From Candidatus Bathyarchaeota archaeon (lineage in GTDB: Archaea; Thermoproteota; Bathyarchaeia; 40CM-2-53-6), in assembly GCA_005888635.1 (NCBI GenBank), contig VBAW01000016.1, positions 62,001-126,000 of the forward strand: a stretch of 64,000 nucleotides of DNA, written 5' to 3'. Shown in pieces: positions 4,808 to 27,347 of this stretch. The position numbers and the translations under genes were made by a program. The stretch's first letter is position 1. Every line of letters begins with the position of its first letter. Below the pieces are notes generated by a model, which saw only the letters and a program-made list of their open reading frames with translations, searched no databases and was not told the origin of the DNA.

Positions 4808-6751
4808 TTGCGGAAGGCAGCTGTCATTGTATTCCTCACTCTAAGCCTTCTTGTATTCTTGCCAACTGACGCTTCAACGAATCATAGCAATCCGCTCGGT
4901 TTTCTCAACGCAGGACCCGTAGGGACCACCGACTATCCTTGGACGATGTTTCATTATGATGCTGGGCGTAACGGAGCTACTCCTGCTTCTGGTCCTACCT
5001 CCGCGAGCCTGATGTGGAGCTACACTACGGGAGGCATCGTTTACGCCTCACCGATTGTGTCTGATGGATTTGTATTCATCCCGTCTTATGATGGTAAGCT
5101 GTACGCGCTTGACGAGTACACCGGAGCCCTCATCTGGTCCTTTACGACTGGATCAAATATCGTTGCAACTCCGGCAGTGGGAAACGGCATCGTCTACCTA
5201 TCGTCCAAGGACTTTACGGTCTACGCGCTTGATGAGAACACTGGTTCAATGCTCTGGCGAATATCGAACGTCGCGGCAGTCGTATCCTCTCCCGTCTTGG
5301 CAGATGGCAAGCTTTTCTACGGGACCTTGTATTCTTCATCAGCAGGTAGGGCTGAGTTTCTGGCCCTCAATCCTCAAGATGGAACAGTGTTCTGGAGACA
5401 GACTATTTCCGATTATATCGAGGGTTCCGCCGCCGTTAGCAAAGGGCTCGTGTTCTTTGGGATAGGCGCTATCAGCAACGCTGTCGTTGTCGCCTTGAAT
5501 GAGACGACTGGGAAGTCAGTCTGGAATTACAATACAGCGGTCCCGACTACGATAACCACGGCGCCCGCCACTGCTTATGGCAATGTTTACGTGGGTCTTG
5601 ACGGTACCAGGTTCCTCGCGCTCAGCCAAGCCACGGGCGGCCTAGTCTGGTCGTTCAACACCCCAAGCGGTTCTAACGCGACTTCTCCCGCGATCTATAA
5701 TGGAGTAGTCTACTTTGGAACGGGCAGAGGTATCGTGTATGCTCGTAACGCGACTACTGGTGGTCTAATATGGTCGTATACAACTCCTACCGGCGGGGCG
5801 GTGGCATCCTCCCCTGCCATAGCTCTTGGATCTAAGACCGTGTTTTTTGGTTCTAACGATCGCTACTTGTACGCGGTCAATATGATGACAGGCACCTTTT
5901 TGTGGAGGTACTTGACTGGCGGACAGGTTTCCTCTTCACCTGCGGTGGCCGATACCCGGGTCTTCATCGGCGCTAAAGACGCGAAGGTCTACGCCTTGGG
6001 GATAATCATTCCGCCACTGAGCGCTACGCTAACCGCGAGTCCAGCTATCCTGAGATCAGCAAGTGTGTCAAATCTTACAGTGACCGTTAGAAACAGCACG
6101 GGCCCGATCACAGGAGCCAATCTAACTCTTACCTCATCAGCCGGAGGAACACTCAGCCAGCCAGTGATGACTATTCCCGGGACCTATGTTGCCAACTTTA
6201 CTGCGCCCCCAGTAAGCTCGACCCTCATTGATGTAATCCAAGTTATTGCGAGCGCACCTGGCTACCTCAACGCTGTCGCAAGGACGACTATTACCGTGAA
6301 TCCGTACCCCCCTCTGACAGTCGCGGTTGCCGCGAAGCCCGGGACAACCACCCCTGGGGCGGAGGTTCTCCTGATGATCATGGTGACTAATGGGACTGAC
6401 TTGATCGCAGGTGCAAGTCTCACCATGACCTCGACATCGGGCGGCAGCTTCTCTGGTCCTACCGATGGTGGGAATGGAAACTATACAGTAATCTACACTA
6501 CTCCTCTCCAGAGCTCTACTAATGTCCTGACAGTCCAGGCCTCAAAGAACCAATTCAGCTCTGCGCAGGGCCAGGTCGTTGTGACAGTGAACGGGATTCC
6601 TGATCTTACTACTGTGAAGGTGGCTGGTCTACCGCTATTCCTATTTGCTGCGGTTGCAGTCCTCATATTCTTCATCCTTATCGCTGTCGCGGTTACGCGG
6701 CGGGACAGGTCCCGACCGCACGGTCCGCCTCAACCCTCGTTCACGTATTGA
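4808..6751 (+). CDS. Secreted, membrane-anchored PQQ-type beta-propeller with Ig-like domains
   Basis: 647 residues. An N-terminal signal peptide (MRKAAVIVFLTLSLLVFLPTDA) is followed by seven or so propeller blades with repeating TG-x-LIWSFTTGS and SSPAVADTRVFIGAKDAKVYAL patterns up to about residue 400. Two invasin/Ig-like beta-sandwich domains follow, each beginning SATLTASPA or TVAVAAKPG, and then a C-terminal TM helix (LPLFLFAAVAVLIFFILIAVAV) with a short basic tail. The layout places the propeller outside the cell. The start is TTG at 4808. No calcium/PQQ enzyme active site is evident, so a structural or binding role is likelier than dehydrogenase activity. Confidence 0.8.
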   Translation: MRKAAVIVFLTLSLLVFLPTDASTNHSNPLGFLNAGPVGTTDYPWTMFHYDAGRNGATPASGPTSASLMWSYTTGGIVYASPIVSDGFVFIPSYDGKLYALDEYTGALIWSFTTGSNIVATPAVGNGIVYLSSKDFTVYALDENTGSMLWRISNVAAVVSSPVLADGKLFYGTLYSSSAGRAEFLALNPQDGTVFWRQTISDYIEGSAAVSKGLVFFGIGAISNAVVVALNETTGKSVWNYNTAVPTTITTAPATAYGNVYVGLDGTRFLALSQATGGLVWSFNTPSGSNATSPAIYNGVVYFGTGRGIVYARNATTGGLIWSYTTPTGGAVASSPAIALGSKTVFFGSNDRYLYAVNMMTGTFLWRYLTGGQVSSSPAVADTRVFIGAKDAKVYALGIIIPPLSATLTASPAILRSASVSNLTVTVRNSTGPITGANLTLTSSAGGTLSQPVMTIPGTYVANFTAPPVSSTLIDVIQVIASAPGYLNAVARTTITVNPYPPLTVAVAAKPGTTTPGAEVLLMIMVTNGTDLIAGASLTMTSTSGGSFSGPTDGGNGNYTVIYTTPLQSSTNVLTVQASKNQFSSAQGQVVVTVNGIPDLTTVKVAGLPLFLFAAVAVLIFFILIAVAVTRRDRSRPHGPPQPSFTY

Positions 6752-6779
6752 TCGGATGGACGGGCTTTTCCGGGAAGGC

Positions 6780-6788
6780 TTATGTAAG
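6780..6788 (+). promoter_or_regulatory. TATA-like box of the 5S rRNA gene
   Basis: TTATGTAAG lies 24-32 bp before the inferred 5S start at 6812, the normal archaeal TATA spacing. It sits just downstream of the propeller-protein stop. Confidence 0.5.
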
Positions 6789-6811
6789 CGATTTCTGACC
6801 CGTGGGGTTTA

Positions 6812-6968
6812 GTGGGGTTGGCGGCCATAGCTGGGAGCTAGGACCCGTACCCATTCCGAAAGAACGAGGAACGCTCGTACCGGAAGCACGGAAGTGAATC
6901 TCCCAGGCGATCTCTGTGGTAGTGTGGTGAGAGATCCCACGCGAAGCTTAGACCGCTGCCAACCTCAT
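6812..6968 (+). rRNA. rrf: 5S rRNA with an inserted hairpin
   Basis: The ends pair as TGGGGTTGGCGGC with GCTGCCAACCTCA (13 bp, two G-U), forming helix I. Canonical 5S blocks follow: GGCGGCCATAGC, ACCCGTACCCATTCCG, CACGGAAGTGAAT and CTCCCAGGCGATC. Between CCATTCCG and CACGGAAG there are about 25 extra nt that fold as ACGAG-GAACG-CTCGT, extended by TTCCG/CGGAA. Total length is about 157 nt against the usual 120-130. No 16S or 23S gene is adjacent, so this is a stand-alone 5S gene. Confidence 0.9.
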
Positions 6969-6971
6969 TTG

Positions 6972-6997
6972 AAAATTCTGGAAAGTTCTAGAATTTT
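6972..6997 (+). terminator. Hairpin just after 5S rRNA
   Basis: Perfect 8-bp stem AAAATTCT/AGAATTTT with a 10-nt loop starts 4 nt after the 5S 3' end and is followed by T-rich sequence. It is likely the transcription end or 3' processing signal of the 5S gene. Confidence 0.5.
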
Positions 6998-7119
6998 GCT
7001 TCATCGATTTTTTCTATCTTCAGAGTTATGATTGGGAAATCGTGCGTAATCAATCTTTATAACGCGCAGGGGACAATTAACCTTCAGCGCTCGGGGGACA
7101 TCGGCTGCTATCTGTTGCA

Positions 7120-8250
7120 TTGCTCGATATTTTCAGCCCTCTAAGCCCTCTAAGCAGCATTTTCAACAATCTAGGCACTGTCACTCAGTTAATCTTCACA
7201 CTCCTGTTTGTCCTTCTCTTCTTCGGATTTGGGCAGAAGCTCCAGATGCGTCAGTACATGTGGGATATTGACAGGGGATTACGACGCCTCGACCTCATTC
7301 GGACCCAGGCGAAGGATCTGGCGTTGAAGACTATCAAGGAGATCGGCAAGCCGACCATGGACCCATTGCCTCAACTAAATGTGCTGATGGAATCATTCTT
7401 GATTACTCCGGTGGACATGGACCCGTCGGGCATTGTGAGCAAGTTCGACCATCTCTTGGATGTTCGTGATGTGAAGTTCAAGGAGGATGTTCAGAAGATG
7501 GCGCCTGGTGCCGACTCCGCTCAGGTCAACAACCTTGAGAACCTTGTCGAGGCTTCTTGGGCCTTGAACACTATTTTCCGGATAATACGCCACTTCTATC
7601 TGTTGGGCAAGAAGACTAACAGTATATTCATCATCATTCAGCTTCAGGCTCTACTTCCTATGATTATGCAGGAGGCTGAAGCCTACTTGGGTGCGGGGCG
7701 AGCGTTTGCTGAGGGGCAGCCGATAGGGGATGGGCTTGGGCCGCTTGTTGCGTCGAAGTTGATGAAGGATAAGGCTCAGAGGAAGGTCGAGAAGGACATC
7801 ATGGTTGCTGAGACCACGATGGAGGATCGGAGAATAATTGCTCTCAAGGCCGAGGGTCCGGGGGGGAATGTTGGAAAACCGGGGGACGCCATACAATCCC
7901 TCCTCCAAGAGAACGATGGAAAGGTCTCAATGATCGTGATGGTGGATGCGGCTCTAAAGTTCGAGGGCGAGACCACGGGTGAGATCAGCGAGGGGATTGG
8001 TGCAGCGATTGGGGGCATTGGGACGGAGCGTTTCAAGATCGAGCAGGAAGCTACGAAACAGAAGATACCGGTCTACGCGGTCATCGTCAAGGAGAGCATT
8101 CTGGAGGCGATTACTCCTATGAAGAAAGAGATACTTGAGGCGGGAGACAAGGTTATCGAGAGGATTAAGAACCTCATCGTGGAACGGAGCAAGCCCGGCG
8201 ACACGGTTATAATCGCCGGAATAGGCAACACCATAGGCATAGGACAGTAG
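7120..8250 (+). CDS. DUF1512 family membrane protein
   Basis: 376 residues with one N-terminal TM helix (LGTVTQLIFTLLFVLLFFGFG), then a cytoplasmic part with a helical stretch to about residue 210 and a mixed alpha/beta C-terminal region including SMIVMVDAALKFEGETTGEISEGIGAAIGG and the glycine-rich end VIIAGIGNTIGIGQ. This organisation matches the archaeal DUF1512 family as I know it; its function is unknown. The start is TTG at 7120, with a TATA box (TTTATAACG) about 60 bp upstream. The membrane zinc-ribbon gene follows after 9 bp. Confidence 0.75.
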   Translation: MLDIFSPLSPLSSIFNNLGTVTQLIFTLLFVLLFFGFGQKLQMRQYMWDIDRGLRRLDLIRTQAKDLALKTIKEIGKPTMDPLPQLNVLMESFLITPVDMDPSGIVSKFDHLLDVRDVKFKEDVQKMAPGADSAQVNNLENLVEASWALNTIFRIIRHFYLLGKKTNSIFIIIQLQALLPMIMQEAEAYLGAGRAFAEGQPIGDGLGPLVASKLMKDKAQRKVEKDIMVAETTMEDRRIIALKAEGPGGNVGKPGDAIQSLLQENDGKVSMIVMVDAALKFEGETTGEISEGIGAAIGGIGTERFKIEQEATKQKIPVYAVIVKESILEAITPMKKEILEAGDKVIERIKNLIVERSKPGDTVIIAGIGNTIGIGQ

Positions 8251-23723: not shown

Positions 23724-25004
23724 ATGGTTGAACCGTCGCAGTACGCTTCGACAACAAAATACATAGTTAAAGCAAAATTCGATGTCCAAGGCGTCGTAGA
23801 GAAGCCTGACGTAGTTGGTGCCGTTTTCGGCCAGACAGAGGGCCTCTTCGGCCCAGACCTTGATCTTAGGGAATTACAAAAATCCGGACGTATAGGCCGG
23901 ATCGAAATTAATCTAGACTCGAAACATGACAAGACAACAGGCTCAATAGTAATCCCGTCAAGCCTCGACAAAGTCTCAACGGCCATCATCGCCGCTGCGA
24001 TCGAGAGCGTTGACCGCATTGGACCCTGCGAAGCAAAGATCAGCCTTGAGAAGGTAGAGGATGTCCGGGAGGAAAAGCGCAAGGCAATACTGACCAAAGC
24101 CAAGGACATTCTCCGAAAATGGGTCGTAGAATCCTCACCCAGCACCGAAGAGGTCGTGAAGGAAGTTGCAGGATCCCTACGCGGAGTCGATGTCATTGAA
24201 TACGGACCCGAAAAACTCCCGGCTGGACCCGAGGCTGAGAGAGGAGACATCATAGTCGTAGAAGGCCGAGCGGACGTCATTCTTCTCATGAAGGTCGGCA
24301 TCAAGAACGTAATCGCACTCAATGGCACCAAAGTTCCGGAGACAGTCATCAAGCTCACCAAGGACCGAGAAGTCACAGCGTTCCTAGACGGGGACAGAGC
24401 TGGAGACCTGATCTTGAAGGAACTCACTCAGGTTGCGGAGATCGACTATGTGGCTCGTGCTCCATTCGGGAAAGAAGTGGAAGAACTCACACCCAAAGAG
24501 GTCATGAGAGCCTTACGCGAACGCGTGCCGCTAAACATGGCAAAGCCAATCGAGAGACCACAATTTGCTTCCAGACCCGAAAGAACCGAACGTCCTTACC
24601 AAGAGAAATCCTATACCGAGCGAGCCTATGGTCCAAGAGAACAGGGCTACGGTCCACCTGAGATCACCGTTCGTGCCGCTACTCCGGTCGAAAAGCCGAA
24701 CTTACCTCCACCAGTCTTCGACGCCGCGAAAGACCTCCGAGGAACTTTGGAGGCTGTTGTCTTCGACGAGGCGGGTAAGGAGTTGTCTAAGATGCCAGTA
24801 AGTGAGCTTGCGGAGAAGATACCGAGCCTTGAAAACTCTCACCTTGTTCTCTTCGACGGCGTGGTCACACAGAGACTTCTGGACATCGCCGCGGGAAAGG
24901 GCATAAAATACGTGATTGGAGATCGAGTATCAGACGGGGCAAAAAAGCCAGCTAACGTTAGCGTTCTAACGCTCAGCGATCTATCCTCGTTTGGTCCCAA
25001 CTGA
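23724..25004 (+). CDS. dnaG: DnaG-type primase, archaeal
   Basis: 426 residues. A conserved archaeal N-terminal domain (YIVKAKFDVQGVVEKPDVVGAVFGQTEGL) precedes a TOPRIM domain around residues 165-260 with the catalytic Glu in IIVVEGRADVILL and the acidic pair in VTAFLDGDRAGDLI. A Pro/Arg/Glu-rich linker and a C-terminal alpha/beta part follow. Archaeal DnaG is found with the RNA exosome and may also prime DNA. Its last 24 nt overlap the 3' end of the polymerase gene on the other strand. Confidence 0.93.
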   Translation: MVEPSQYASTTKYIVKAKFDVQGVVEKPDVVGAVFGQTEGLFGPDLDLRELQKSGRIGRIEINLDSKHDKTTGSIVIPSSLDKVSTAIIAAAIESVDRIGPCEAKISLEKVEDVREEKRKAILTKAKDILRKWVVESSPSTEEVVKEVAGSLRGVDVIEYGPEKLPAGPEAERGDIIVVEGRADVILLMKVGIKNVIALNGTKVPETVIKLTKDREVTAFLDGDRAGDLILKELTQVAEIDYVARAPFGKEVEELTPKEVMRALRERVPLNMAKPIERPQFASRPERTERPYQEKSYTERAYGPREQGYGPPEITVRAATPVEKPNLPPPVFDAAKDLRGTLEAVVFDEAGKELSKMPVSELAEKIPSLENSHLVLFDGVVTQRLLDIAAGKGIKYVIGDRVSDGAKKPANVSVLTLSDLSSFGPN

Positions 25005-27347
25005 GAGACTAGTTTGGGAAGCCGGGGCCGCTAGTAATTGCTCCGCTGACACACCGAGAATCTCTAGGATACGTGCGGCAGCAGGCACAATTTGATTCCG
25101 GACATAATAATCGTAGTCCACGTCCTCTATTATGACCTTGTAGTGAGGCTCCGCTTTCTGAAACAGTTTTCCAGATCTCTTCGTTATCACGAAGCCGACT
25201 TTGTCTCCTGCCGTAACGGGCCAGCCGTCTTTCGCCATCTTCTTCGCGACTTCCACATGTGGAGCGTTCACCTCGTACGCTTCGACGGGCTTAGTCAGAG
25301 TCTTCCACACAACGAACGATGATAAGGGCAGCTTCTTCGATTTGAGATTCCTCGTCAAGTCTTGAACATAGGCCGCCGCTCTGGACGGGTCAGCGTCTTC
25401 TAAGACCATTCTCAGAACCGTGTTCTGTACGTCCCGAGCTAGGTTCGACCAGTCCCCTCTGACCGCCTCGAGACCTATGACATCGATCTGACCATCGATT
25501 CTTAGGCCTGCATATTTTTTCTTGGCCTCCGTGAAGAGTATCCTCTTGTAGACTTCAGATAGGTTGATTTCGAGTCCTAGCTGCCGATCGATCTCAGCCT
25601 GGAACTTCTGGACAAGTTTCTCATCGTAGTTCACGAAGAGACTGTCCGTATCACCGTAGAAGACGGTGAGTCCGAGGCTCTTCGCGAGCGAAATCGCGCG
25701 GTTGATCGTCTCTCTTCCTAAGGCAGCGGCTGATTCCGCGACCTCCTTCGAATACCAACGTGCCCCAGCCCAGCCCGCGTAGCCGTAGACAGCGTTCGTC
25801 ATGACTTTGACGGCCTTCTCACGAGCCTTTAGCAAAGGATACCTCGAATCGCTCTTGGCTGTGCGCTTGAGCTCGGCCTTGGTCGTCTTCCTGGCTTCGA
25901 TGAGTTTCGTGAGAACTATTCTGTAGAACCCGGAGGGACTCTTTCTGAATCGGTGTCTGACTTCAGGGACTTCGAAGACATCCTCAGTCTCTTTCCCGGT
26001 GACGAGTGTATCGGGAGAAATGTTGTACTTGATCATCAAGCTTGGATACATAGACGAGAAGTCGAGACTGGCCACGTTATCGTGTAGCCCTACCTTCGGC
26101 TCGAGGACAATCGCTCCCTTGTATGGAATAATCGGCTGTTCGGTTCTAGAAGGTATTAGCTGGCCGAGATTGTGGGTCTCCATCATTAGGTAGTTGTCGA
26201 CTCGGAATCCCACGGCCGCAGCTATCACTTGGTCAGGGGGCAGTCCCGAGAGTGCCGATATCTGGATGACATAGTCGATTGCCTCTTCCCCGATCGCTAG
26301 GATGGTTTCGGTTTGTTCTTCCATATGTTTGACTAGGATTTTTCTCTGGTCAGGTTTTGACCAGTAGTCGAGGTTGGCTGTTTCATCGATCGGTTTCTGA
26401 TTTGGTGATTGGATTCCGAGATATTTTGCGACGTTCTCGACGGTCTTGTTCTTCACCTCGTACAGGTCCTCAGCGAAATTGAGAAGGTCAACGTTCGCAC
26501 GTCCGATCAGCGAGTAGTGCCCGTAGAGACTCTGATGTGGCGGACCCTCATCTCGGCCGACTCTGAGCGGGGTCTTGGTCTTGTTCGCCCTCTTCACAAG
26601 ATAGGGCCAGCCGATACTGTTTCCTTCGAAGCTCAGAACGAAGTCTGGATTGATCTTAATGACGTCTTCGCCGAACTTCTGAATGGTAGCTTGATCCGAA
26701 TCGGCGTGAGTCAGGAGAGCTTCGTTTGCATTCTTGTCTGTTCTCCAGCTAATGATCTGGATCGGGTCCCGTATCGGACTAGGTGCACCCGTCTTGCTGA
26801 CGGATAGGAGTGAAAAGGAGAAGAGATCTAGGCTAGGCGGTTCTTCTTTCGGGACGGGGCGGGGATGGTCTGTTGCTGTTAGCGTTTCTTGGACGCTGAA
26901 CTTGTTTGGGTCTATCGTTGAAACAGTAGTGTCTGCCTCGTACCACTGGCAGGGCTTGATCCCGTGGTCGTACTGGTACTTGATCGCTAGTCGGAGTTTC
27001 TCTTCGTAGGTTGCTTCAGCGCCAGTTTTTTTCAGCGTTTCTCGTGCAGCCCTCTCAAGGAACTCTGGGTCTTTGCAGAACACCTTGAGGACGACTCGTT
27101 CGTCGGCTAGAAGTTTCTTTTTCTCAATCGTAGCATTTTCGATGGTGGGATGAGGTTTTTCTGCTTCCAGCTTTTTCCTCAGTTCTTCCGGGTCCTCCTT
27201 CTTTCTTGGTAGGAGGTAGAAGTAGGCTCGGTAGTTGTCGATGACGAGGACCCGTTTTCCTTCGTGGGTGATGCCCCAGAGCCAGATCGACGATTTTCCT
27301 TCGTAGGTCTCATGGTTGAGGTCGAGAAGCCAGAAAGTCTGTTTCAT
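24981..27347 (-). CDS. polB: Family B DNA polymerase with degenerate 3'-5' exonuclease motifs
   Basis: 788 residues. The polymerase motifs are intact: A as SLDFSSMYPSLMIKYN (about 428), B as KVMTNAVYGYAG (about 510) and C as FYGDTDSLFVN. The proofreading domain is present in length but not in residues: Exo I reads FSFSLLSVS where FDIE is expected, Exo II reads SFEGNSIGWPYL where YNGDNFDFPYL is usual, and Exo III reads VKHMEEQTET rather than YxxxD. A polymerase without proofreading is predicted. ATG at 27347 overlaps the upstream small membrane gene (ATGA). Confidence 0.9.
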   Translation of the reverse strand: MKQTFWLLDLNHETYEGKSSIWLWGITHEGKRVLVIDNYRAYFYLLPRKKEDPEELRKKLEAEKPHPTIENATIEKKKLLADERVVLKVFCKDPEFLERAARETLKKTGAEATYEEKLRLAIKYQYDHGIKPCQWYEADTTVSTIDPNKFSVQETLTATDHPRPVPKEEPPSLDLFSFSLLSVSKTGAPSPIRDPIQIISWRTDKNANEALLTHADSDQATIQKFGEDVIKINPDFVLSFEGNSIGWPYLVKRANKTKTPLRVGRDEGPPHQSLYGHYSLIGRANVDLLNFAEDLYEVKNKTVENVAKYLGIQSPNQKPIDETANLDYWSKPDQRKILVKHMEEQTETILAIGEEAIDYVIQISALSGLPPDQVIAAAVGFRVDNYLMMETHNLGQLIPSRTEQPIIPYKGAIVLEPKVGLHDNVASLDFSSMYPSLMIKYNISPDTLVTGKETEDVFEVPEVRHRFRKSPSGFYRIVLTKLIEARKTTKAELKRTAKSDSRYPLLKAREKAVKVMTNAVYGYAGWAGARWYSKEVAESAAALGRETINRAISLAKSLGLTVFYGDTDSLFVNYDEKLVQKFQAEIDRQLGLEINLSEVYKRILFTEAKKKYAGLRIDGQIDVIGLEAVRGDWSNLARDVQNTVLRMVLEDADPSRAAAYVQDLTRNLKSKKLPLSSFVVWKTLTKPVEAYEVNAPHVEVAKKMAKDGWPVTAGDKVGFVITKRSGKLFQKAEPHYKVIIEDVDYDYYVRNQIVPAAARILEILGVSAEQLLAAPASQTSLSVGTKRG

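Follow-up and report, generated by a model that had tools for sequence, protein, structure and literature searches.

A PolB3-group DNA polymerase of Bathyarchaeia with an exonuclease site that was probably inactivated long ago

PolB3 is regarded as the major, proofreading archaeal family B polymerase. The stretch of 64,000 nucleotides of Candidatus Bathyarchaeota DNA analysed here (the window) encodes a member of the PolB3 group that has lost its exonuclease site. None of the four acids that bind metal in this site is left, and the polymerase triad is in place. The loss is not peculiar to one genome, but common to a large group of archaeal relatives. This PolB3 is probably a catalytically competent polymerase, with an exonuclease site that was inactivated long ago, and accessory to the accurate PolD and PolB1.

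The gene lies on the minus strand at 24981..27347 and encodes 788 amino acids from an ATG start. The assignment draws on the open reading frame, Pfam, alignments and Foldseek. Pfam recognises two domains in it, DNA_pol_B (E 6e-65) and DNA_pol_B_exo1 (E 1e-12). The motifs were read from a pairwise alignment to 5mdn, the solved PolB3 of Pyrobaculum calidifontis, and from a MAFFT alignment of 42 rows. All coordinates of motifs are on the minus strand. Exo I (26799..26816) reads FSLLSV against FDIEVY, such that FDIE in 5mdn corresponds to FSLL. Exo II (26598..26630) reads FEGNSIGWPYL against YNSNGFDWPYL, with NSIGWPYL in place of NGFDWPYL. Exo III (26307..26330; H341, Q345) reads KHMEEQTE against RYVLDDVR, with HMEEQ in place of YVLDD. 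The metal positions are thus taken by S179, L181, G246 and Q345. Polymerase motifs A (LDFSSMYPS, 26040..26066, with D429), B (KVMTNAVYGY, 25779..25808) and C (YGDTDS, 25641..25658, with D566 and D568) are intact in the alignment.

The initial annotation had described exactly this combination, with the metal-binding acids gone from Exo I, II and III and motifs A, B and C preserved, and both alignments agree with it. It had also called for an alignment to see if acids would return to the metal positions after local shifts, which they do not. A local shift gives no site because the glutamates near Exo III change position among sister species: E343 and E344 vary within the genus, where the sequence is EEQ, AEL or KAQ. 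The Exo II metal position is G, H, Q or D in sister species. Rescue by neighbouring acids was therefore rejected. An assembly or sequencing error was also rejected, since independent genomes have the same loss. From the missing metal ligands and established knowledge of family B exonucleases, we infer that the window PolB3 would have no nuclease activity.

A whole-genome search found 60 relatives, some as close as the genus and others related at the level of the class. Scoring of 117 full-length relatives found all four acids in 51, none or one in 65, and three in a single protein. The survey is bimodal in this way, which excludes chance loss. The polymerase triad is DDD in every surveyed row where it is covered. 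No Bathyarchaeia PolB3 among those examined has more than one of these four acids in its exonuclease site. The same state, called exo-minus here, is found in Brockarchaeota, Methanodesulfokora, Geothermarchaeota, Wolframiiraptor, two other Nitrososphaerota genomes and one Methanomethylicota genome; Korarchaeia and deep Nitrososphaerota lineages are thus among the exo-minus rows. All four acids (exo-plus) are present in the examined Thermoproteia, Nezhaarchaeota, Baldrarchaeota, Sifarchaeum and euryarchaea.

The one protein with three acidic positions belongs to Jordarchaeum, in a genome that also has PolD. This intermediate PolB3 has KID at Exo I (Asp for Glu), keeps the Asp of Exo II, and at Exo III has lost the Tyr and kept the Asp. 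As a separate observation, the PolB3 reading frame of one sister species (G009, contig C12, 2000-6500) falls into two frames, with the break between residues 314 and 318; either a recent disruption or a mistake in the assembly could explain this.

A maximum-likelihood tree was computed from the polymerase domain alone, so that the exonuclease trait itself had no part in it. This tree has an exo-minus clade of 47 rows with support 94/94. The Methanomethylicota row falls outside this clade, which makes two changes of state. A second tree, with 15 added sequences from the class of the Methanomethylicota genome and fewer of the others, has an exo-minus clade of 41 rows with support 97/93, and the state changes twice here as well. 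The second loss comprises two species, and their sister sequences are exo-plus and Nezhaarchaeota-like. This means that two exonuclease losses are needed, one ancient and one in Methanomethylicia. The loss itself had been noticed in the initial annotation, and that part stands; its ancient age and its spread over a group of archaeal classes were not visible there.

The closest solved relative of the window protein is 5mdn (E 7.5e-175, 586 bits, aligned over residues 4-773). PolB1 and PolB2 from the same genome are far weaker matches. Full-length similarity, a convergent dnaG and intact motifs A, B and C place the protein in the PolB3 group. An active 3'-5' exonuclease site is typical of characterised PolB3, although it is not a phylogenetic criterion; it is absent here as far as sequence can tell. 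An assignment to PolB2 was rejected, given the canonical YGDTDS of motif C and an Exo III region that aligns in place.

The gene for DnaG (Toprim domain; 23724..25004, plus strand; open reading frame, Pfam and synteny) is convergent with polB3 and overlaps its 3' end by 24 bases. A dnaG that is convergent within tens of bases is found at most Bathyarchaeia loci and at many Thermoproteia loci, and this arrangement has been described for crenarchaea (PMC4104785). Because the convergent dnaG is common to both, exo-minus and exo-plus PolB3 are the same positional gene. Replacement of PolB3 by a paralogue is unlikely for this reason: the synteny is that of the locus of the exo-plus orthologues.

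The genome search also found both PolD subunits, DP2 and DP1, as well as PolB1 (contig C21) and PolB2. PolB1 of the window genome and of the examined relatives keeps DIE at Exo I, NGDxFD at Exo II and YxxxD at Exo III, and in the window genome its polymerase motifs are intact as well. All five phosphoesterase motifs of DP1 are kept in 31 of 31 examined. This makes the loss specific to PolB3, and two predicted proofreading polymerases remain. The initial annotation had called the enzyme a main-looking PolB, which is not supported in a genome where PolB1 has all exonuclease and polymerase motifs and PolB2 is present too. Its suggestion that fidelity would be left to PolD fits the presence of DP2 and of DP1 with intact motifs, and the search it proposed for a second PolB or PolD turned up both.

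Exonuclease state and PolD go together to some degree. Within the tree set, where many genomes are incomplete drafts, PolD accompanies exo-minus PolB3 in 39 genomes and was not detected beside it in 4 (G047, G082 and the genomes of L109 and L116). Exo-plus PolB3 occurs without PolD in 26 genomes of that set and with PolD in 7, five of these euryarchaeal. In TACK archaea, PolD thus tends to be absent where PolB3 is exo-plus and present where PolB3 is exo-minus; this is a pattern with exceptions and not a tested correlation. With just two changes of the exonuclease state, which leave two usable independent pairs, it lacks statistical power. PolD alone is not the cause of the loss, since euryarchaea, and also genome G143, have PolD together with exo-plus PolB3. 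Genome G047, which is 98% complete, has an exo-minus PolB3 and a PolB1, and neither DP1 nor DP2 was found in it; a loss of PolD is possible there.

Selection has not abandoned the exonuclease domain (about residues 161-370; 26238..26867, minus strand). Between congeneric species, with some dS near saturation, dN/dS is mostly 0.10-0.17 for this domain and about 0.05-0.08 for the polymerase domain; the PolB1 exonuclease domain has about 0.02-0.10, also with some dS near saturation. These values indicate that the exonuclease domain of PolB3 is constrained, but more loosely. The AlphaFold2 model of the entire protein is confident (pLDDT 89.5) and has the exonuclease fold, and its best Foldseek match is 5mdn, with TM 0.89/0.92. 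Many exo-minus members end in a tail that resembles a clamp-binding motif, for example KTLTDFF or KTLFDFL. In the genus of the window the aromatic pair of that motif is missing from the tail, so use of the clamp by this PolB3 is uncertain.

PolB2 of the window genome has a peculiarity of its own. In this genome (locus L047, contig C98, about 5505-7738) and in two sister species (L220 and L221), an identical additional base (TGC TCC TTT CGG) divides the gene into two open reading frames. The site of the split is the exact position of an intein in the relative G013. Both halves are under purifying selection, with dN/dS about 0.04-0.14. A programmed +1 frameshift and a split polymerase are both candidates. 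In another genome of the same order (G035, contig C185, 8700-10300), a short insert that contains several stop codons interrupts PolB2 at this site and looks like what is left of an intein.

For the window PolB3, a polymerase activity and a cellular role are what we infer from all this, and the most likely role is an accessory one beside PolD and PolB1, as a polymerase that does not proofread. Inactivation of the exonuclease site would date back to the ancestral PolB3 that Bathyarchaeia share with related TACK lineages, with the fold of the domain kept as a scaffold. Accurate replication would be carried by PolD, through DP2 and the DP1 nuclease, and by exo-plus PolB1. PolB3 may then serve short synthesis tracts, such as gap filling, extension from lesions or mismatches, or primer extension. 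In such tracts, proofreading could be unnecessary or even counter-productive, and errors made by PolB3 would be corrected in trans or tolerated.

Other roles have to be weighed against this one. PolB3 might be a lesion-bypass extender like PolB2 or Pol zeta, which without proofreading could extend mismatched or damaged primer ends. Loss of proofreading does fit extension past lesions, PolB2 is called an extender in the title of one paper (PMC8764526), and the exonuclease of Pol zeta is inactivated (PMC7544198). However, the active-site motifs of the polymerase are canonical, the genome already has PolB2, and no damage-response operon was recognised around the PolB3 gene, all of which makes this rather unlikely. 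An analogue of Pol alpha, extending primers at every Okazaki fragment before PolD or PolB1 takes over, with proofreading in trans, is a more doubtful proposition still. Pfam finds no primase-binding or zinc-finger C-terminal domain in the protein, the adjacent dnaG is convergent and forms no operon, exo-plus orthologues have that neighbour too, and the genome search gave no PolB3 match in the Bathyarchaeia genomes G041, G044 and G049. Such an analogue does gain from eukaryotic Pol alpha being in the same state, with an inactive exonuclease domain and an active polymerase (PMC7544198), and from the presence of the PolB3 gene in most searched Bathyarchaeia genomes, beside other polymerases and adjoining dnaG.

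It is very improbable that other residues hold the metals and that proofreading survives in cryptic form. The Exo II aspartate is the one partly retained position, found in 42 of the 65 exo-minus relatives. But the acids of Exo I and Exo III have mostly given way to a variety of non-acidic residues (S/T/H/A and N/R/Q), all four acids are gone from the window protein, and those nearby vary within the genus. A decaying gene, on its way out and with little function, is hardly credible either. The exonuclease domain has roughly double the dN/dS of the polymerase domain, the PolB3 gene is broken in G009, and some relatives lack it, but the polymerase domain is under strong purifying selection and the reading frames are full-length in most genomes over very deep divergence.

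A broader reading of the accessory polymerase is put forward tentatively, as somewhat short of probable. A single ancient event may have led to the proofreading-free PolB3 of Bathyarchaeia, Brockarchaeota, Korarchaeia and deep Nitrososphaerota. It would be tied to the retention of PolD as replicase, and would have been repeated in Methanomethylicia. It might be a natural counterpart in archaea of the division of labour between exo-plus Pol delta/epsilon and exo-minus Pol alpha/zeta.

The reviews of archaeal polymerases that were consulted name PolB2 as the inactivated group, not PolB3 (PMC4104785, PMC7544198). Keyword searches of the literature, together with PMC4104785, PMC7544198, PMC2669801 and PMC3984812, gave no earlier report of an exo-dead PolB3. 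Its occurrence in a large set of archaeal classes alters inferences on their replication fork. Alongside the eukaryotic case, it would be a second one in which cellular family B polymerases of the replicative type have lost the exonuclease, and it is a source of naturally exo-minus enzymes. It also raises a testable question: can cells do without PolB3 proofreading only if they have PolD, which brings a nuclease subunit of its own?

Among known systems, P. calidifontis PolB3 is alike in full-length fold, domain order and polymerase motifs, and the crenarchaeal dnaG neighbour is convergent as well. 5mdn and the Thermoproteia orthologues keep the four exonuclease acids, whereas the window PolB3 has none. 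PolB1 is a family B polymerase from the same genome, but it keeps all exonuclease motifs and, compared over the C-terminal half, is only about 29% identical to PolB3. Archaeal PolB2 (Dpo2) has similarly degenerate exonuclease motifs, but its motif C is altered, with one Asp, and its Exo III is missing, where the window PolB3 has a canonical motif C and an aligned Exo III region. The catalytic subunits of eukaryotic Pol alpha and Pol zeta belong to a different clade and to multi-subunit enzymes, with C-terminal metal-binding domains that the window PolB3 does not have. They are family B polymerases with an inactivated exonuclease and an active polymerase, and judged by its sequence the window PolB3 agrees with them in this. 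Much like eukaryotes with Pol alpha and Pol zeta, archaea seem to have produced a specialist polymerase that leaves its errors uncorrected.
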